From positions 1-64,000 of the forward strand of contig JAHHHU010000016.1 in NCBI GenBank assembly GCA_019359175.1: a stretch of 64,000 nt of DNA, written 5' to 3'. The notes under the pieces are model-generated. The model saw only the letters and a list, made by a program, of their open reading frames with translations, was not told the origin of the DNA and searched no databases. Made by a program: the position numbers and the translations under genes. Each line of letters begins with the position of its first letter. Position 1 is the first letter of the stretch. The DNA comes from Phormidium tanganyikae FI6-MK23 (GTDB lineage Bacteria; Cyanobacteriota; Cyanobacteriia; Leptolyngbyales; Leptolyngbyaceae). Positions 7,999-46,055 of the stretch are shown here, piece by piece.

Positions 7999-8050
7999 AA
8001 CGGATGGATGACCTGGGGCTCGAACCCAGAACCAGCGGATTAAGAGTCCG
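7999..8050. other. attL: 52-bp repeat of the tRNA-Lys 3' end
   Basis: Identical over 52 bases to 31544-31595. It contains 46 bases of the tRNA 3' half (T-arm, variable loop and anticodon arm) plus six bases beyond the discriminator. The rest of the tRNA is absent here: the sequence diverges right after AAGAGTCCG. This is the expected product of integration into a tRNA 3' end. Confidence 0.92.
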
Positions 8051-8061
8051 CCTAATAAAAA

Positions 8062-8085
8062 CGCCTGTACCAAAACGATACAGGC
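8062..8085. repeat. Hairpin beside attL
   Basis: GCCTGTA and its complement TACAGGC are separated by about ten bases, nested inside AACGCC...GGCGTT. It lies between attL and the integrase stop. It may end integrase transcription (there is no strong T-tract) or be a factor-binding site for recombination. Confidence 0.35.
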
Positions 8086-8162
8086 TGAAAAGCAGTTATA
8101 GAAGGCGTTTATAGTTCTTCTCAACGCACCAAAAGACGGTGATATATTCCAAGACACTGCCG

Positions 8163-8184
8163 TAATTTAGGGAAGATTTAGGGA
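8163..8184. promoter_or_regulatory. Candidate integrase arm sites (left)
   Basis: TTTAGGGA occurs twice in tandem (8166-8173 and 8177-8184), the second within AGATTTAGGGA. The same 11-mer recurs in the same orientation at 31511-31521, just inside the right attachment repeat. Short direct repeats near both ends are typical of arm-type sites bound by the N-terminal domain of tyrosine integrases. This is inference from position and repetition only; the left pair overlaps the integrase stop codon. Confidence 0.4.
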
Positions 8185-9281
8185 GGTGGCATAGGTCGAT
8201 CGGGTCTATTCATCGCAGCATCATAAGCCCGTTGGTGAACCTCATCAGAAATCCAATGGTGATATGTGTCGCAGTGAATCTGATAGCTATGCCCCATCTG
8301 TACGGCTGCAAGTTCCACAGATAGAAAGTCGATCGAGCGCACCGCCCAACAATGCCGCAAATTATAAGGATTACGAAATCCGTAGCGCTTGAACGCTTGC
8401 GTTACCCGATGTCCTAGCTCTCGATTGTTCCGTCCTGTCACCTGTGGCAGCAGTGAGACATCCCACAAGTGCCATCGATCGTACCATTCCGGGTAGAGTG
8501 CCCAAACCCGCCTAGCGCCTGTCTTTCCGCCTCCGTGAGCATCCTCGATCAAATGCAACACAGGCGATTCTTTCAGGCGTTCTAAGTCGATGTGGAATAG
8601 CTCATGATTTCGCAGCCCATAGCAAGCCATCAGTCCAAATGCGTACTGCCACTGCTCATTAGAAATACGATCGCGCCACTCGCTAATCTCTTTGTCAGTG
8701 GGTAAATCGCGAGGCGTTAACTTTTTGGCTGATTTGGCGGAATACTTACCCTTCAATGATTTCGCGTCTAGTGGCAGTGCTGCAAACTTAGCCAAAGCCT
8801 CCGAAACCATGCAGTAGCGCTGTCGATTGCGGGTATCTGGATCTGTTTTTAGAATATGAGATCTCAGCAATTCCGCCGTTAATGGTTCATCCGGTGGCAA
8901 CTGCCGGAACACTTGATCATATTCAGTTTCCCAGGTGGTTTCAGATTTAGGATTGCGCCTTTTACGGTTGAAATAATCAACCTCAAAGCGCTCTATCCAC
9001 CCGCTAACCGTGTCTGATTTTGGCTTGGGGCTATCTATCCAATCAGTCCAAGTGAACACTTTATCTGCCAGTTGTGCCCCTGCTTTCTTGGCTTCAATCT
9101 CTGCCCGTTTATAGCCTACTGGGCTGGCGTAGATACCTAGCGAGATGTCGCGCTGTTTCCATTCCGTCTCACCTGGTTTCGGTGGGAATGTGCCACGGAG
9201 ATAGAGCCGATCGCCCTTCTGACGAATGGTTACGCCTACCTTGCCCGCCTTTAATCGGACATTTATTTGGGTAAGTGACAT
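8178..9281 (-). CDS. Tyrosine recombinase / site-specific integrase
   Basis: A 367-residue phage-type integrase that would insert and excise the element at the tRNA-Lys. The catalytic set is visible: R224 in YGLRNHELFHID, a probable lysine in the beta-hairpin HGGGKTGARR, the box-II motif YNLRHCW with R309 (tyrosine replaces the usual first histidine, a known variation), the MGHS histidine near 331, and the nucleophile in TYHHW at about 340. The N-terminal part would hold the arm-binding and core-binding domains. It is the last gene of the long minus-strand operon. Its start overlaps the end of the excisionase candidate by 19 bases, suggesting coupled expression. The gene sits directly next to attL. 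Confidence 0.93.
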   Translation of the reverse strand: MSLTQINVRLKAGKVGVTIRQKGDRLYLRGTFPPKPGETEWKQRDISLGIYASPVGYKRAEIEAKKAGAQLADKVFTWTDWIDSPKPKSDTVSGWIERFEVDYFNRKRRNPKSETTWETEYDQVFRQLPPDEPLTAELLRSHILKTDPDTRNRQRYCMVSEALAKFAALPLDAKSLKGKYSAKSAKKLTPRDLPTDKEISEWRDRISNEQWQYAFGLMACYGLRNHELFHIDLERLKESPVLHLIEDAHGGGKTGARRVWALYPEWYDRWHLWDVSLLPQVTGRNNRELGHRVTQAFKRYGFRNPYNLRHCWAVRSIDFLSVELAAVQMGHSYQIHCDTYHHWISDEVHQRAYDAAMNRPDRPMPPP

Positions 9282-9484
9282 TTTCTCTTTTCTGGAGGGA
9301 TGGCGAGTAGTTCCTCGCAGCGTTCTACATGAAATTGCAGAGTCGGACGCTTTGATCCGATTGGGGAGATGTCGCGGTAGTGATGCCCATGCTTGAACAT
9401 CCCAGATCGATACAATTCTCTCAGTTTTTCCGCAGGCAAATCAAGGGAGATCGCAGCGTCGATCGTCAAATACCAAGTCTTCAT
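9263..9484 (-). CDS. Putative excisionase (recombination directionality factor)
   Basis: A 73-residue basic protein opening MKTWYLTIDAAISLDLPAEK, with a MerR/Xis-like winged-helix pattern (LTIDAAISLDLPAEKLRELY) followed by a strand-rich part. Excisionases of tyrosine integrases are small DNA-bending proteins encoded directly upstream of, and overlapping, int; both features are seen here (19-base overlap). Identification rests on size, position and helix pattern rather than a strong signature. A role as a small operon regulator is the main alternative. Confidence 0.55.
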   Translation of the reverse strand: MKTWYLTIDAAISLDLPAEKLRELYRSGMFKHGHHYRDISPIGSKRPTLQFHVERCEELLAIPPEKRKCHLPK

Positions 9485-9551
9485 GTTGCTTTGTAAAAAT
9501 GTTAAGGAATGCAGTTGGGCGAACTATTACCGCCCCGTGGAACGGAAGGAA

Positions 9552-12551
9552 CTATCGAAGACTTGTGGGGATAATCTCAGGACGGCACTCAGAAAGTTTG
9601 TACTTGTCGCCGTCACGGTCGATCAGTAGTACCCCGTCGGATGTTCGTTGAATAGCCTCAATCCTGATCAGATTGCCTGAGACATCTAAGAAATAGCCGC
9701 CGACCTTAGCCCATGTCGGAAGTGCTTCAGTTGTTTCGCTGGTTTGATCTGGTTGTGGCTGTGCGTCAGGTTCTTCAACTTTTGTAGGTTCGGTTCCGAT
9801 CGTCTCTATGGATGGAGGAGCGAAAGTTAGTCCTTTGATTCCCATTTGGCGATGTCCGATTTCTACTTTTTCGCACTGAGGGTAAAGTTTCTGAATATGC
9901 CTCGGTAGCTGATTTGCGGCTTTGATATAGGGATCTCCCGGTCGGACATCATCAGCCCAGACCCTACGACCGTCCGTATTGATGGTTAGTACGTCGGTAT
10001 CGATATAGTACTGCTCAAGTTCCCGCCACAGGTCTTTCACTGGGATCACTGATCCACGATCGAACGTTAAGCCTGAATCTTTGGCAAACTCAAATAAGTG
10101 GGAGTTTTGCACCTGAATTTTTTCTAGTGCCTCGTCGCAGCAAGAATAATCAATCCCGTTTTGCATCAGATCCGTGAATGCTGCAATCACGCGATTTAAG
10201 AAGGCAGACAAAACATGATTTCTCATGAAGTCGCGATCGTACTTATATCGTGGATCTGCTTGCATCTCGCCCTTAGCGGGGTTTGGTTTCGTTGCATAGA
10301 CTTTGTTGTAAGAAATCACAGCAAAGCGGTCTTGAATCGCTTGTAACCCTGCTTTGATGTTGGGTACGTCATTCAGGTTAAAAATGAACACCGCTTTGGG
10401 CTTGAATGGCTTTTCGTTCTGTCCCTTAAGTTCGTGGTCTAGTTCCTCCCCGGTGATTGCTTGCTTTAGGCTTTGCAAATCATCGATACTAATGCCCTTC
10501 TTATTTTCGGATGCCCAATTGATCCGAGATGTCACAAGCTTTGCTAGAGGAAACTTTCGACCCTCATCGTATTGTTGAAAATCCTGAAGAGTGACAGACG
10601 TTAAGCCAGATCGACCAAACAACAGGCTAAAGGCTTCTTTGTGGGCATCCTTGCCGTTAGATCCAACCCCTTTAATGAGTAAGCCTTTGATATTCCGTCC
10701 GTGATGTTTACGAACGGTTTCAAGATCAAAAGATGCCGATCCAACCTCTAACAATACCTCCTGTTGTGGCTTGTCTAGGGCATCCATCAAGCGATCGCAG
10801 TCTTCCGATGGTGCTTGTGGGTCGTAAGTCACCATCGGTTCGTAGAGGTAGTAAAAATCGGGGTTGTGAGGGACTAAGGTGAACTCTGGAATATTCCCAC
10901 GCTTGCCCGTGTAGCTAATTTGCAGCACTCCGTTCGTGCAATTTAAACCACTTGGGTTGCATCGATCGTAGGAAACAGCAAACTGCATTTTGACCCATTC
11001 AAGAGCGTTCTTTACCGCGACTGGGTTTGCAAATGGATAGCTGGTTCTCTCGTCTCGATCTACCTCAAACTCATTGGCAAACGCCTGAATCCTCGAAAGT
11101 TCAACTTCGTCATTCGAGTATCTATAGTAGGTTCCTGTCCACTGGTAAAGCTTTCGGGCAACGCAGATCCAAGGATCTTGAAAAAGAGACGCGCTAACCA
11201 TTTGCGGAAAGGTCATTCCGTCTTTAATGGGCGATACAGACCTCTTGCTGTCTCCATCGCCTTCGATCGCGTGTAAACCCAAAAGATCCTGAGTCTTAAG
11301 CCACACATCAAGCGAGATTCTTTGCCGATTTGCCTTGACAGTTTCCAAGTCTTTCTTTAGGGATTTCTTGCCTAGCTTGGTTGATTTAGTGATGAATGTC
11401 AGCAGTAAATCAGTTTTATTCGAGTCCAGATGTTCTGCTGCCAGAATCAGAATTCCTTGAATGCAATCCGACTGATCAGACGGTGAGACGTGCTTCAACT
11501 CAGTCGCAATCAAAAATAGGTACTCGCTGGGTTCGGCTCCCTCGATATGAGGTAAGAACTTATCTTTGAGGCACTGAGGCACTTCAACAGCGGGGACTCT
11601 GGGAAGCGCGATCGCGTTTTCAATAGCAAACTCAACCGCATCCGCACCCGATTGAATACAGAGGTCGTCGAGTCCTTTACCCTCGGAATTTTGCCAAAGT
11701 GCGACCTTAGCGGTTACTCCGGAAAATTGCTCTAGCAGTTCGCAAGCCCGTTTGATTGCGTAGCCAACACTGCGAACGGTTTCAGGCTTCTCGTCACGAT
11801 CGAGCGCAATGACAAATGTTCTCCCCGGTTGGCAAAATCGAGCGAGTTCAGGATTGACGATATAACTGCCGTCCTGTTGTTTGAGCGTCAAGCAGTCCTT
11901 GCCATAAAGGGCGATTGCTGCATACCCCTGAGAAATCGCGCAGAGAGACTTTTTCCCGCCCTCAGTAAGCGGAATCGGGATCTCTGGGTGCTGCTCTACA
12001 AAATCCCAGAACGAGCCGTCAGAGGGGAATTCAACGCCGTTTCGCTTACTGATGGCTTGACGGACAGCAGCGGGAATCGGAGGCAGGAATGCTCTCGATC
12101 CGGCTTCCTTGGGCGCTAAGTAGGGTTTGTTGTAGCGATTCTTGCCCTCGTTCCACTTTTGGAAGGACAACTTCGCTTGCCACGGTGATCCATCCTCGTT
12201 GAACATCAGCGCGGCGAAAAAGCTTTCTCTCAAGGCAAATCCCGCTTGAGATTCGCTCTGGCTCCACCTCAAGAACTCAGCGATCGGGTTTTCTGAAGGT
12301 TCACCGTTTTCGATGCGGGTGTCGCTGACAATCTCGATTGCGCCGTTCTCAAAAAAGGATGGGTGAACGCCGCTCCCTTCAATAAATTCCCTGAGAGTCC
12401 CTTCAGAAAAATCCTCAAACGTGGAATATAGTTTCTTGCGCTTGGGTTGCGACTGATGCTCTGAAAGCCCTTTGGACACGGTAGAAGTAGAATTGTTTGA
12501 GTCGAAACTATTGACAGTTTCCTTAGTCGTGTCTACACTTGAATTACGCAT
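9552..12551 (-). CDS. DUF3854-type Toprim/SF3 primase-helicase of plasmid/phage type
   Basis: A 999-residue replication protein. Residues about 60-310 form a DUF3854-like Toprim domain with LTEGGKKSLCAISQGYAAIA at 195-214 and the acidic ALDRDEK at 249-255. A middle linker leads to a D5/P4-type SF3 helicase: Walker A GVGSNGKD (628-635), the acidic INWASENKKG strand, the sensor FIFNLNDVPN and the arginine finger QDRFA near 742. A C-terminal low-complexity tail and small beta domain end the protein. Such proteins unwind an origin and prime DNA synthesis in satellites and plasmids. The Walker lysine is followed by D rather than S/T, which also occurs in SF3 relatives. An AGAGGG site precedes the ATG. 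It is the element's main candidate to recognise the iteron blocks. Confidence 0.88.
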   Translation of the reverse strand: MRNSSVDTTKETVNSFDSNNSTSTVSKGLSEHQSQPKRKKLYSTFEDFSEGTLREFIEGSGVHPSFFENGAIEIVSDTRIENGEPSENPIAEFLRWSQSESQAGFALRESFFAALMFNEDGSPWQAKLSFQKWNEGKNRYNKPYLAPKEAGSRAFLPPIPAAVRQAISKRNGVEFPSDGSFWDFVEQHPEIPIPLTEGGKKSLCAISQGYAAIALYGKDCLTLKQQDGSYIVNPELARFCQPGRTFVIALDRDEKPETVRSVGYAIKRACELLEQFSGVTAKVALWQNSEGKGLDDLCIQSGADAVEFAIENAIALPRVPAVEVPQCLKDKFLPHIEGAEPSEYLFLIATELKHVSPSDQSDCIQGILILAAEHLDSNKTDLLLTFITKSTKLGKKSLKKDLETVKANRQRISLDVWLKTQDLLGLHAIEGDGDSKRSVSPIKDGMTFPQMVSASLFQDPWICVARKLYQWTGTYYRYSNDEVELSRIQAFANEFEVDRDERTSYPFANPVAVKNALEWVKMQFAVSYDRCNPSGLNCTNGVLQISYTGKRGNIPEFTLVPHNPDFYYLYEPMVTYDPQAPSEDCDRLMDALDKPQQEVLLEVGSASFDLETVRKHHGRNIKGLLIKGVGSNGKDAHKEAFSLLFGRSGLTSVTLQDFQQYDEGRKFPLAKLVTSRINWASENKKGISIDDLQSLKQAITGEELDHELKGQNEKPFKPKAVFIFNLNDVPNIKAGLQAIQDRFAVISYNKVYATKPNPAKGEMQADPRYKYDRDFMRNHVLSAFLNRVIAAFTDLMQNGIDYSCCDEALEKIQVQNSHLFEFAKDSGLTFDRGSVIPVKDLWRELEQYYIDTDVLTINTDGRRVWADDVRPGDPYIKAANQLPRHIQKLYPQCEKVEIGHRQMGIKGLTFAPPSIETIGTEPTKVEEPDAQPQPDQTSETTEALPTWAKVGGYFLDVSGNLIRIEAIQRTSDGVLLIDRDGDKYKLSECRPEIIPTSLR

Positions 12552-39659: not shown

Positions 39660-39953
39660 CTAAGAACTAAACAGAACTTCTAAATCTCGATAGCCGCTGA
39701 CAACGCGAGCAACATCAATCCCATCAGTTCTGGGATAGTACAGAATAATATATTCCTCAACAATTGCGCCGCGTAGGTCAGGAGAAAGCTGGCTGTATGA
39801 TTTGCCTGAGTTTGGAAAGTCAGCCAGAAGCTTACATCTTTTGCGGATGTTGTCAAAAAGTTTGCTAGCTGCTGCGGGATCGCGTTGGGCAACGTAGTCG
39901 CAGATTTCATCCAAGTCTTGAACTGCTACATCGGAGAATGAGTAGCTGTTCAT
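39660..39953 (-). CDS. parE: ParE-family toxin
   Basis: 97 residues with the ParE/RelE fold: SFSDVAVQDLDEICDYVAQR, SKLFDNIRKRCKLLADFPNS, and IVEEYIILYYPRTDGIDVAR followed by VVSGYRDLEVLF. ParE toxins inhibit DNA gyrase. It overlaps the antitoxin gene by four bases (39950-39953), so it is translated coupled to it. It is a chromosomal copy, unrelated to the element. Confidence 0.88.
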   Translation of the reverse strand: MNSYSFSDVAVQDLDEICDYVAQRDPAAASKLFDNIRKRCKLLADFPNSGKSYSQLSPDLRGAIVEEYIILYYPRTDGIDVARVVSGYRDLEVLFSS

Positions 39954-40204
39954 GTGTCGGATTGGGAAAAGCGGTTAATTTTTGCTTGAAAATTCGCAAA
40001 AACGGTCTCTCCATCTGTGACTTGCCCGTTTTGAATTTGCTCAGTTCCGATCGCAATTTTTTGCCGCAGTTCTTCCAATCGCTGTTCCTGCTGCTCAAGT
40101 AGTGTAAGTGCTTTATCAATTACGTCATCTGGATCTCGATATCGACCGCTTGTAAGTCGTGCGCGTACAAATTCCGCTTGTTCTGGCTTTAAAGTGATGT
40201 TCAT
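39950..40204 (-). CDS. parD: ParD/CopG-family antitoxin
   Basis: 84 residues, MNITLKPEQAEFVRARLTSG then RYRDPDDVIDKALTLLEQQE, the ribbon-helix-helix of ParD-like antitoxins with a toxin-binding tail. The ATG at 40204 is preferred to the adjacent TTG. It precedes and overlaps the toxin gene, and lies divergent from fumC. Confidence 0.85.
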   Translation of the reverse strand: MNITLKPEQAEFVRARLTSGRYRDPDDVIDKALTLLEQQEQRLEELRQKIAIGTEQIQNGQVTDGETVFANFQAKINRFSQSDT

Positions 40205-40308
40205 CAAGGTTAAACAATGAATTTATCTTAGTTTAACGCGATCGAGCTTTTCCCTCTTCCACAAATCCCGTAGTCTAGAAATTGCTCGATCGCAAAGGAA
40301 CCATTCAA

Positions 40309-42596: not shown

Positions 42597-43799
42597 TTAG
42601 AGTAAACCTAGCCTGCTTAACGCATTCTCAGCCGCACGCTTTTCAGCTTCTTTTTTACTACGATCCTGCCCTTTGCCATATTCACCGTCAGCAACATAAA
42701 CCACAGAAATAAATTCTGGAGCATTATCAGTCCCGTCACAACGAATCGTTATGTACTTAGGAGGACAGTGGTTAGGATTTTTAGAAAAAGATTGGGCTAA
42801 AACAACTTGTTGTAACCGGGTTTTTGCATCAGCTTGAATCGATGGAACAGCAGTTTCAGTGGAAGGCAAAGCATAAATAACCTTCTCAAACAGAGGATAA
42901 ATGAGATCGCGCACTGCTTCAACGCCAGAATCGAGATAATAAGCGCCAATAACCGCCTCAAATACATTACTGAGCAGCGACGGCTTATTGCGACCTCCGT
43001 TGCTATCCTCGCCTCTTCCAAGCCGCATCCATTTTTCAAGCGATAACTCAACAGCAAACTTTGCTAACTGTGGAGAATCAACCAGATTTGAGCGTAAGAC
43101 TGTCATTCGACCTTCTTTCCAATCTGAATTTTGCTTGTACAAAAAATCGCCGCTCAGAAATGTCAGTAAAGCATCGCCAAGAAACTCTAGCTGCTCATTA
43201 TCTTCACCTGTGTTGGGATTCTCATATTTGTACGAAGTATGCGTTAGTGCCTGGTTTAGCAGAGAGACATTTTGAAAGGGAAGACGCTTCAGCAATAGAT
43301 CGAGTCTTTGCCGAATTTGTGCTTCCTCAGCGGATGGGACAGATATAGGCTCATGTCTAACTTGATCTTGAGAAAGGAGCCGAAGAACTTCTTGCCGCTG
43401 CTTTTCTATCTCTTTTAGGTGAGGAGACGAGATAGACTTAAGCAATCGAGAGACAGTATCTACAGCTCGATAAGCGTCATCCGTTGAAAAGGTAGTCTGG
43501 TGCGCCCATAGATTTCGGACACCGATTAATTCCTGAGCAAGAGCGAGATCAGACGGCATGAGACTGCCTTTAAAGGTTTTGTTCTCCCTGTTGATAATGA
43601 TTAGAAGTGCAGATACATCTTCGCGGATTCTCTCTTCCACTGACTGTTTTACTTTCTGATAATTTTGCAAATGCAGAGCAGCTTTCGTCATCCAATCGCT
43701 ACCATAGGCAGCTTGCATTTTTTGCTCAACATAAGGATGTAAGCTCTGCCGTAAGCACTCTAAAGCTTTTCCAATCCTCTCCTTATTGCTAATTCCCAT
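42597..43799 (-). CDS. Swt1-like HEPN domain fused to RNase III and dsRBD
   Basis: 400 residues with three parts. Residues 1-140 are helical and carry RNLWAH (R95-x4-H100), the catalytic pattern of HEPN ribonucleases, in a Swt1-like HEPN context. Residues about 170-305 are an RNase III domain with NEQLEFLGDALL (metal ligands E205 and D209) and SNVFEAVIGAYYLDSG (E281). The usual aspartate three residues before E281 is asparagine (N278). Residues 322-398 are a double-stranded RNA-binding domain (DAKTRLQQVVLAQSF, KKEAEKRAAENALSRLGL). RNase III makes staggered cuts in double-stranded RNA, whereas HEPN enzymes cut single-stranded RNA or tRNA loops. Joining both in one chain is unusual. It stands alone near DUF790 and other nuclease genes. 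The asparagine may be tolerated or may reduce metal binding. Confidence 0.85.
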   Translation of the reverse strand: MGISNKERIGKALECLRQSLHPYVEQKMQAAYGSDWMTKAALHLQNYQKVKQSVEERIREDVSALLIIINRENKTFKGSLMPSDLALAQELIGVRNLWAHQTTFSTDDAYRAVDTVSRLLKSISSPHLKEIEKQRQEVLRLLSQDQVRHEPISVPSAEEAQIRQRLDLLLKRLPFQNVSLLNQALTHTSYKYENPNTGEDNEQLEFLGDALLTFLSGDFLYKQNSDWKEGRMTVLRSNLVDSPQLAKFAVELSLEKWMRLGRGEDSNGGRNKPSLLSNVFEAVIGAYYLDSGVEAVRDLIYPLFEKVIYALPSTETAVPSIQADAKTRLQQVVLAQSFSKNPNHCPPKYITIRCDGTDNAPEFISVVYVADGEYGKGQDRSKKEAEKRAAENALSRLGLL

Positions 43800-43891: not shown

Positions 43892-45109
43892 CTACCGATC
43901 CAACACTTCTAACACCGCTTTAGGCAACAACTGATCCTTGAACCAAACAATCCGAGCAGGCGTGTCCGAAATCTTCACCCCGGCTTTTTCCAAATTTAAC
44001 CGCTCCGATACCGCCAAAATCAAATCATCTCGCCCCGACTGCCGCACCTGCGAAAACTTCTTCCGCAAATACTCCGGTCGCCAATACCCTACAATCTCAA
44101 CTAAAAACGTTCTGCCGTCTGGATGCACCACCCGAAAATCAGGAATCATCACACTCCCCGGAATCGGAATCAAATCGACCTCGCGTTCTAATCGCCACTC
44201 TGTTTTGGCTTTATTCCATCGATCGACAAATCCTTCCTCAAGCAAACTATCATAGGTCTTCCCTGGCGGATAATGGCTAATCAATCCACACTCTGAATCC
44301 AGTGCAAATCGACCTTGCCGCGTTTTACCTGCATAACTATCATTAATCTGTAATTCTGCTGCTAAACTCCAGCGGGTGACGTGCAGTAAAGCTGGAAGTA
44401 ACTTCGCGATCGCTAATCCATATCGCGTCGAAGGCTTAAATAGACTGGTCGGGCCATCGATCGTTAAAGTAAATCCATGATCCGCATCCCCTTCGATGTA
44501 AGTCATCAACTGGAATAGCTTCATGTATCGGAACAATAGCTTATACTGTCCCGGATCGTTGCGGTGAGCGTTGATTACCATGTGGCTAGCTCGGTAAAAA
44601 ACCCCTTGCACTTGCGATAGATTGTAGCGATGCACAAGTGCTTCCGGTGTCGGTGCTTCAAAGCTAATTAAAATCTGATTCTCTGGTAAATCCGCATACA
44701 GTCCCGCTTTCACTTGCTCTGGTAAAACTTCTCGATCGAGTTCTTGGGCAAGAGTTTCTGCAACTTTCTCGATCGTATTCTGAGCCTCCAGCACACTCGG
44801 AATTGCCTGCGCCGACAGCGCGAACACTCGATCTCTGAGCATCGGCGGATCAAGCGGACTCACCGTTTCAAACGTACTAAACGCACCATTGAGCAAATGC
44901 GCCAAACCTCGTTTTATCCGGTAGTCTGTTTCCTCACCTTCGAGCGCTTGCAACTGTCGATTGAGTTCGCCTCTTGTGCCATTCTTGGCTTCTTGAAACA
45001 GTGCGATCAACTCTTGCGCGATCGACAACAGTTTTTCATCCAACTGCAACCGCTTTGGGACAATCTCTTCGCCATTAAAACGTTGAATTAGTAAATCAGT
45101 CGGTAACAT
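43892..45109 (-). CDS. DUF790 (Bax1-like) nuclease
   Basis: 405 residues. The family includes archaeal Bax1, a nuclease partner of XPB helicase. The restriction-like core is visible near the C-terminus: IPDFRVVHPDGRTFLVEIVG followed by a basic YLRKKFSQVRQ, a PD-(D/E)XK-type arrangement (PDF, then VEI). The N-terminal half is helical. In many genomes the gene sits beside an XPB-like helicase gene; none is present on either side here. It is followed downstream by the HEPN-RNase III gene. Confidence 0.8.
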   Translation of the reverse strand: MLPTDLLIQRFNGEEIVPKRLQLDEKLLSIAQELIALFQEAKNGTRGELNRQLQALEGEETDYRIKRGLAHLLNGAFSTFETVSPLDPPMLRDRVFALSAQAIPSVLEAQNTIEKVAETLAQELDREVLPEQVKAGLYADLPENQILISFEAPTPEALVHRYNLSQVQGVFYRASHMVINAHRNDPGQYKLLFRYMKLFQLMTYIEGDADHGFTLTIDGPTSLFKPSTRYGLAIAKLLPALLHVTRWSLAAELQINDSYAGKTRQGRFALDSECGLISHYPPGKTYDSLLEEGFVDRWNKAKTEWRLEREVDLIPIPGSVMIPDFRVVHPDGRTFLVEIVGYWRPEYLRKKFSQVRQSGRDDLILAVSERLNLEKAGVKISDTPARIVWFKDQLLPKAVLEVLDR

Positions 45110-45197: not shown

Positions 45198-46055
45198 ATG
45201 CTGAAATCTCGCTGGCAAATTTTCGCGATCGCGGCGCTCCTGGTTGCTGTGGTTCTAGGCTCTCTGTTTCTACTCAATCGACCAAAAGAGCCGATCGGCA
45301 CTCAACCCTTTTTGCCGCCGATTGTTAGCAATGTTCACCTCACAATGGGCATTCCTAGCAAAGCCACAAAAGAGGTCTCAAATGCAAACGATTTTCTGAT
45401 TGATGACAATCGCCCGTATGCCCTGTCGTACAACAACAGTAAGCATATTCCAAATTGGTCAAGCTGGCAGTTAAATAAAAGCTGGCTCGGAACTACACCC
45501 CGCGCCAATGATTTTCGCTCTGATACGACTTTGCCGAAGGGCTGGTATCAAGTAAAGTCAAGCGACTACAACGGGAGCGGCTACGATCGCGGTCATCTTA
45601 CCCCATCTGCCGATCGCGCCAAAGCTCCACAGATCAACTCTGCAACGTTTCTCATGACTAACATTCTGCCGCAGACTCCAGACAACAATCGGGATGTGTG
45701 GGAAGGCTTAGAAAGCGAATCGCGCAAATTGGTAAATGCAGGCAAAGAGCTTTACATTATCGCAGGGGGACTAGGAGAGAAAGGTACGATCGGCGCTCAA
45801 AAAATTTCCATCCCCGATTCTACTTGGAAGGTGATCGTCGTCATGGATCAGCCAAACTTGAGAGCTTCTGATGTCACCGATAAAACTCGTGTGATTGCAG
45901 TCAATGTTCCCAACATCCAAGGCATCAAAGATAAGACTTGGCGTGACTATCGTGTGAGTATTGATCAGCTTGAAGAAAAGACGGGATACAACTTTCTCAG
46001 CCCTGTTCCAGAAGCGGTGCAGCAAGAGATCGAGAGCAAAGTAGACAAAGGCTAA
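45198..46055 (+). CDS. DNA/RNA non-specific endonuclease (NucA type)
   Basis: 285 residues. An N-terminal membrane anchor or signal (IFAIAALLVAVVLGSLFLL) precedes the nuclease domain with the catalytic GYDRGHLTPSADR motif (DRGH) and the metal-binding asparagine in TNILPQTPDNNRDVWEGLES. Such enzymes cut single- and double-stranded DNA and RNA outside the cytoplasm and help in nutrient recovery or defence against foreign DNA. It is divergent from the DUF790 gene. Confidence 0.9.
   Translation: MLKSRWQIFAIAALLVAVVLGSLFLLNRPKEPIGTQPFLPPIVSNVHLTMGIPSKATKEVSNANDFLIDDNRPYALSYNNSKHIPNWSSWQLNKSWLGTTPRANDFRSDTTLPKGWYQVKSSDYNGSGYDRGHLTPSADRAKAPQINSATFLMTNILPQTPDNNRDVWEGLESESRKLVNAGKELYIIAGGLGEKGTIGAQKISIPDSTWKVIVVMDQPNLRASDVTDKTRVIAVNVPNIQGIKDKTWRDYRVSIDQLEEKTGYNFLSPVPEAVQQEIESKVDKG

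Follow-up and report, generated by a model that had tools for sequence, protein, structure and literature searches.

A HEPN domain fused to an accessory RNase III in cyanobacteria

The gene considered here raises the question of what a cyanobacterium has in a protein that carries a HEPN ribonuclease domain, an RNase III domain and a dsRNA-binding domain (dsRBD) on one chain, and whether this is the housekeeping RNase III of the cell or an enzyme of another kind. It lies in the window, by which we mean the whole stretch of DNA analysed (64,000 nucleotides, positions 1 to 64,000 of contig JAHHHU010000016.1 of Phormidium tanganyikae FI6-MK23). The reading we favor from the sequences, at a little better than an even chance, is that the protein is an accessory cyanobacterial RNase III of the A type to which an N-terminal HEPN RNase domain of the HmaC/DUF499 kind would add a second, metal-independent head, the whole being directed at dsRNA. 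The features concerned are as follows.

42597..43799, minus strand: HEPN_Swt1 - RNase III - dsRBD fusion protein, 400 aa (ORF, Pfam and NCBIfam)
43428..43769, minus strand: Swt1-like HEPN domain, residues 11-124, with R95 and H100 of the R-x4-H motif (Pfam PF18731)
42900..43265, minus strand: RNase III domain, residues 179-300, with E205, D209, E281 and N278 (the position of E. coli D114) (Pfam)
42609..42824, minus strand: dsRNA-binding domain, residues 326-397 (Pfam PF00035, E 2.7e-13)
43892..45109, minus strand: DUF790 / Bax1-like endonuclease, same-strand upstream neighbor, 92 bp away (PF05626, E 9e-156)
45198-46055, plus strand: Endonuclease_NS gene, the NucA-type neighbor (Pfam)

Domains, catalytic residues and selection

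The minus strand of the window holds at 42597-43799 one open reading frame of 400 amino acids with an ATG start; the original prediction had these coordinates right and left out the strand. Its domain assignment (HEPN, RNase III and dsRBD on one polypeptide) was borne out by Pfam and NCBIfam, and the residues R95-NLWA-H100, E205, D209, N278 and E281 stand where it had placed them. HEPN_Swt1 (PF18731) matched with E 2.2e-30 (105.8 bits vs a cut-off of 27.5) and Ribonucleas_3_3 with E 2.9e-33 over residues 179-300; PF14622, PF00636 and PF00035 were all above their cut-offs, as was the NCBIfam RNaseIII equivalog TIGR02191 (200 bits vs 166). The signature motif of the RNase III domain reads NEQLEFLGD, and this domain with the C-terminal dsRBD gives the layout of a class I RNase III. 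The window gene is a real, intact member of a published HEPN-RNase III-dsRBD architecture, and since eight other genomes of the class carry complete fusions homologous to it (36-60% identical), the fusion is more than chance.

The HEPN_Swt1 profile, run over the window's genome, matched the window gene alone (E 6.4e-31). In a model of residues 1-150 (pLDDT 88), the motif RNLWAH (95-100) closes helix 82-99 and opens the loop before helix 106-122, and R95 is followed by a polar residue, N96; HEPN domains have been described as having R-x4-6-H at the end of helix 3 with a polar residue after the R (PMC3710099). Structure comparison by VIA-align ranked the C-terminal domain of yeast Swt1 (4pqz) first, with 124 aligned residues, rmsd 3.4 and a Z of 8.4, for which the tool's guide for helical bundles is about 13. 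In the next ranks were the HEPN entry 2hsb (Z 7.3) and MntA-HepT entries (Z <=6.2), with an unrelated dehydrogenase between them at Z 7.1, and several HEPN entries and some unrelated helical proteins are mixed below rank 1. A Foldseek search of the PDB with the same model gave no solved structure at E <= 0.001, and a profile of the HEPN alignment gave a single match among PDB sequences (E 0.5), which we took as chance. The placement of the HEPN domain against the RNase III domain is unsure in the whole-protein model (pLDDT 85.5), given its pTM of 0.45.

Both R95 and H100 are kept in all nine complete fusions of the unbiased set and also in L180, and they are kept in 21 of 21 complete fusions of a larger set, 16 of which were found via a search requiring the motif. 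Every complete fusion seen, even in a divergent group with 36-37% identity to the window protein, has N or H after the R, along with the R and H of the motif themselves. The dN/dS ratio was 0.06-0.29 for the HEPN part (15 of the 16 chosen pairs, one being saturated with dS not computable) and 0.03-0.15 for the RNase III part (all 16 pairs), the latter being lower in 13 of the 15 pairs computable for both; for the dsRBD it reached 0.62 in one pair, where synonymous change was slight. These ratios indicate that the HEPN extension is under purifying selection. Thus, the R/H motif, whose conservation in orthologues had been put forward as a check on the HEPN assignment, is conserved in all complete fusions aligned, and the predicted double-ribonuclease architecture gains from both RNase motifs being conserved and under purifying selection. 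Still, the HEPN could serve in binding or regulation and have no RNase activity. We consider it improbable that it is idle, an extension used only for dimerization, RNA binding or regulation on an RNase III that is ordinary in all else: eukaryotic Swt1 has a HEPN regarded as inactive (PMC3710099), and the lower dN/dS of the RNase III part in 13 of 15 pairs points the same way, but the motif R and H occur in all complete fusions including the 36-37% identical group, and some loss would be expected of an idle domain.

The RNase III domain has three of the four acidic catalytic residues of the E. coli enzyme (E41, D45, D114 and E117), with N278 in the place of D114. Once duplicate loci, the fragment L012 and two short rows had been set aside, all 22 fusion rows and all 27 rows of stand-alone A-type enzymes (the type is defined below) showed E205, D209 and E281. 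The fourth acidic position is N in 14, S in six, D in one and A in one of the 22 fusion rows, and S in 25, D in one and C in one of the 27 stand-alone A-type rows; it is D in 8 of 11 B-type enzymes. The B-type sequences L125, L136 and L137 have Ala, Gln and Ala there, respectively. The original prediction took the asparagine at the fourth metal site as a mark of specialization, a claim that had to be dropped, as the stand-alone A-type relatives also are without the Asp and usually have Ser. With Asp in only one fusion of 22 and one stand-alone A-type enzyme of 27, N278 was ruled out both as a loss of activity and as a special feature. In one structure of the E. coli enzyme, D114 is the only one of the four acidic residues that makes no direct contact with Mg2+ (PMC9291653), and some class III enzymes have a D-to-N change in their first RNase III domain (PMC5357909), so N278 excludes neither activity nor RNase III homology.

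The A and B types of RNase III and the distribution of the fusion

Cyanobacterial RNase III falls in our tree into two clades, A and B, split at 100/100 support. All fusions in this tree are of type A, and so are the fusions among the further loci, which scored as such far above the B model. The B-type query (L002, from the window's genome) matched 268 of the 291 genomes of the class at E <= 1e-25, and the A-type query (the RNase III-dsRBD part of the window protein) matched 167 at the same threshold, which leaves 124 without an A-type gene, fusions included; these genome counts are proxies, and a few weak matches, e.g. G093 at 6e-28 with the B query, may be of the other type. A B-type gene was found in all 24 fusion genomes searched (L046 is outside this set), in G265 as no more than a 196-aa open frame, and in G291 and G293 on the basis of score and length only. 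A stand-alone A-type gene was found in 14 of the 24 and was absent in ten (G000, G005, G003, G294, G296, G297, G299, G300, G301, G302); in G294 the fusion itself stops short, close to the end of a contig.

The window gene is the only A-type RNase III found in its genome, and it is not the only RNase III there. It could have been the sole RNase III acting as ordinary rnc, an outcome that the original prediction named as fatal to itself, but a separate rnc of the near-universal B type (L002) is present in the genome. An ordinary cellular RNase III with a neutral N-terminal extension would agree with the TIGR02191 score above the equivalog cut-off, with the ten fusion genomes in which no stand-alone A-type gene was found and with the six Nostocales fusions at the usual A-type locus of their group (see below); however, the B-type rnc in all 24 fusion genomes searched and the purifying selection on the extension speak against it, and we hold this explanation to be very improbable. 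The fusion need not be a replacement for the stand-alone A-type enzyme: the latter is missing in ten of the 24 fusion genomes, but 124 of the 291 genomes at large have no A type at E <= 1e-25 either. A stand-alone A-type gene (9251-9961) with Asp at the fourth acidic site comes directly after the fusion (L043:8001-9203), on the same strand, in Microcoleus sp. FACHB-61.

Whole-protein searches found the fusion or its remains in 12 of the 291 genomes of the class. It is complete in nine (G000, G265, G005, G116, G097, G289, G019, G064, G036) and split over two contigs in G003. G193 has a broken copy (L010) with a stop inside the HEPN part and a frame ending early in the RNase III part, and G190 has a remnant of residues 226-400 only (L012); both these genomes also have stand-alone A- and B-type RNase III. 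Within the window's genus, two of eight genomes carry the fusion. As its distribution is patchy (12 of 291 genomes, with one broken copy and one remnant), the fusion gene is dispensable.

The HEPN profile alone had a match in 48 of the 291 genomes, including 11 of the 12 fusion genomes (none in G190), and 30 of the 47 matches outside fusions are in frames 1,026-1,295 aa long. Of 103 related loci from a pattern scan limited to one genome per species, 80 were kept. RNase III fusions make up 18 of these, all in records named cyanobacteria, and 17 show at least part of the RNase III domain (L038, one of the 18, is cut by a contig end); of the other 62 loci, 50 have frames >700 aa. Five of the 18 overlap the 12-genome set, giving 25 distinct genomes with the fusion or its remains. 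G301 has two different fusions (L180:2015-3196 and L050:8001-9164), and no stand-alone A-type gene was found there.

One locus with and without the HEPN domain

A midpoint-rooted HEPN tree was made from 84 rows (23 fusions, 49 ATPase-length frames and 12 others, identical rows dropped). The 23 fusion HEPNs group together in 95% of the 200 bootstrap trees (support 93/100), their nearest neighbors being three ATPases from cyanobacteria and a fragment (86/95, not starred). Two long HEPN proteins that were checked, of about 1,120 aa, both have HEPN_Swt1 and DUF499 and matched the HmaC model of PADLOC at 1062 and 1213 bits. The midpoint root of the tree makes the direction of HEPN acquisition an inference. 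For the RNase III parts, a single clade of all 22 fusions was rejected at a cost of 67 log units (AU p 0.005), a clade of the 16 fusions outside the six Nostocales ones was not rejected (AU p 0.46), and a clade of the six Nostocales fusions was rejected (p 0.018); the AU tests were chosen after the tree was seen, so the p values are optimistic. The rejected RNase III clade would fit losses of the HEPN as well as its transfer.

The six Nostocales fusions (L042, L044, L046, L047, L050 and L051) nest in the tree among stand-alone A-type enzymes. They are found near 8001-9164 of their loci, at the usual Nostocales A-type rnc locus. Five of them have a run of flanking genes in common with the stand-alone A-type loci of G116, G097, G289 and G303, and L051 has the other flank in common with that locus. 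Since these flanks are common to the six fusions and to stand-alone A-type loci, the Nostocales rnc-A locus occurs both with and without the HEPN. Four Nostocales genomes have the fusion at the group's usual A-type rnc locus and yielded no second A-type gene; this suggests that an accessory RNase III already there took a variant form, and not that a separate weapon was added. Twelve stand-alone A-type loci of other genomes lack this run of genes: comparison with eight flank queries gave no close match, apart from weak ABC-protein and c11 ones. A Phormidium fusion (L039) has one flank in common with the Nostocales locus (three gene families, 66-81% identical), which favors an old fused state at this locus and subsequent loss of the HEPN in several Nostocales; by a count made by eye on the RNase III tree, about six such events would be needed if it was never regained. 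Transfer of the HEPN onto the Nostocales locus by recombination is possible.

The stand-alone A-type loci of the Nostocales type differ from the fusions also in what precedes the RNase III. A gene with an NYN domain (assigned by Pfam for one of these genes, that of L174 being a 115-aa frame) stands 24-117 bp upstream on the same strand in five of seven such loci with wide flanks (L174, L175, L177, L179, L181), directly before the RNase III, where the fusion has the HEPN instead. It is lacking in the stand-alone loci L176 and L178, and none was found in the six fused Nostocales loci. With 1.5-kb flanks, an NYN-domain gene was present in four of the 18 A-type loci L015-L032 (L023, L024, L027 and L029, the first two being the same loci as L175 and L174).

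These comparisons show the HEPN to be an optional part of an accessory, not housekeeping, RNase III, one that comes and goes. A fuller scenario is offered only tentatively: the HEPN RNase may be a plug-in of rnc-A, acquired once from an HmaC-like ATPase and then lost often or recombined between copies, with an NYN RNase often in its place, and the product may be an RNase that is guided by dsRNA, works in two steps and acts against viruses or in plasmid control.

Neighborhood, proposed mechanism and known systems

The DUF790 and NucA-type neighbors that had made the locus look nuclease-rich are indeed present, but they are not conserved: no homologue of DUF790/Bax1 or Endonuclease_NS was found at 18 other fusion loci (up to about 8 kb on each side), which rules out a conserved operon with either gene. 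The DUF790/Bax1 gene, although not a conserved partner, is possibly co-transcribed with the fusion; a simple scan of the 92-bp gap gave no terminator-like site and no minus-strand promoter-like site, which says little. XPB is the archaeal partner of Bax1, and the sole XPB-like helicase match in the window's genome is on another contig (C76), away from the Bax1/DUF790 homologue. The window also has at 39660-40207, on the minus strand, a ParE-like toxin gene (PF05016) with a small overlapping upstream frame, toxin-antitoxin-like by appearance. Gene clusters common to fusion loci beyond the Nostocales locus and its close relatives are few and mostly of broad families.

RNase III cleaves dsRNA in a Mg2+-dependent manner. 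In the mechanism that we infer, which covers both RNase activities, the dimer geometry, the substrates and the role of the fusion, the RNase III domains would pair as the usual dimer and thereby bring two HEPN domains together. The dsRBD and the RNase III valley would grip duplex RNA, both strands of which would be cut by RNase III with Mg2+, and the HEPN pair would cut flanking or released ssRNA without metal, leaving 2',3'-cyclic phosphate ends. As a result, duplex-forming RNAs (antisense pairs, plasmid or phage duplexes) would be destroyed more completely than by an ordinary A-type enzyme. Metal-independent cleavage with such ends is the described chemistry of HEPN domains (PMC3710099). If both heads are active, this would be a natural bacterial protein with a metal-independent HEPN RNase and a metal-dependent dsRNase on one target, and one in which an anti-phage module is tied to ordinary RNA turnover. 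As the locus occurs with and without the HEPN in related Nostocales, the effect of this domain is testable by a clean domain deletion.

Alternatively, the fusion could be a dsRNA-triggered anti-phage effector, in which the RNase III and dsRBD sense phage duplexes and license the HEPN to cut cellular RNA (abortive infection). This we consider unlikely, though less so than an idle HEPN. The HEPN is the same module as that of HmaC/DUF499, a possible suicide effector (PMC12839542), and the patchy spread (2/8 genomes even within the window's genus) and the broken copy and remnant in two genomes would suit such a role. However, neighborhoods differ from group to group and no defense gene recurs: at E <= 1e-10, the 97 neighbors of 13 loci gave matches to 39 PADLOC families, and of the 25 families listed none matched more than one protein. 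Likewise, a pattern scan of viral contigs and a tblastn search of phage records, both with the HEPN part, turned up no relative, and none of 113 whole-protein matches in plasmid records covers 80% of the query; the best 20 of these all start at residue 147 or later and therefore lack the HEPN. Of the specialized RNA-processing or antiviral role originally suggested, the part that stands is that the enzyme is not the sole RNase III, whereas the antiviral part has no positive sign beyond the kinship of the HEPN.

The favored reading, a dsRNA-directed accessory RNase III with a HEPN head, can be compared with four known relatives. The stand-alone A-type enzymes are 43-56% identical to the RNase III-dsRBD part of the window protein (rows listed) and share its E/D/E residues but have no HEPN. 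The B-type L002 has the RNase III domain and dsRBD in common with the fusion but belongs to the separate clade (100/100). One studied cyanobacterial RNase III paralogue has no rRNA role and affects plasmid copy number (PMC10989914). HmaC/DUF499 proteins have the same N-terminal HEPN_Swt1 module of about 150 aa as the fusion, but with a DUF499 AAA+ ATPase where the fusion has RNase III-dsRBD. Hma was named as a candidate helicase-methylase-ATPase defense system (PMC8565338) and has been re-described as type-1 BREX-related, with a HEPN on the ATPase in 1370 taxa and the HEPN-bearing HmaC read as a possible last-resort suicide effector (PMC12839542). HmaC is described alongside a methylase and a helicase (PMC8565338, PMC12839542), whereas for the two proteins compared here only the protein itself was considered. 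The window gene is not a DUF499/HmaC ATPase beside a methylase and a helicase, its protein (P0001) had no PADLOC match, and since it is the only HEPN_Swt1 match of its genome, there is no HEPN-bearing HmaC there.

The closest precedent is that of Anantharaman et al. 2013, who listed a HEPN of the Swt1 family joined to 'RNASEIII and DSRBD (Cyanobacteria), active', placed this HEPN in the Abi2/Swt1 family and proposed that two-headed RNases of this sort use both of their domains to cut dsRNA targets (PMC3710099). Likened by description, their example (gi 119489560, Lyngbya) and the window protein agree in the three domains, in their order (HEPN, then RNase III, then dsRBD, in one protein) and in the cyanobacterial host. 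Our literature search on HEPN with RNase III, in which subscription journals were mostly outside coverage, found nothing beyond that paper, and its available excerpts are silent on A and B types, a separate rnc, HEPN gain and loss and the altered acidic site. Hence the architecture was already known as a prediction from 2013, and what is new here is its placement among the A and B types, the explanation of N278 and the coming and going of the HEPN on an accessory RNase III.
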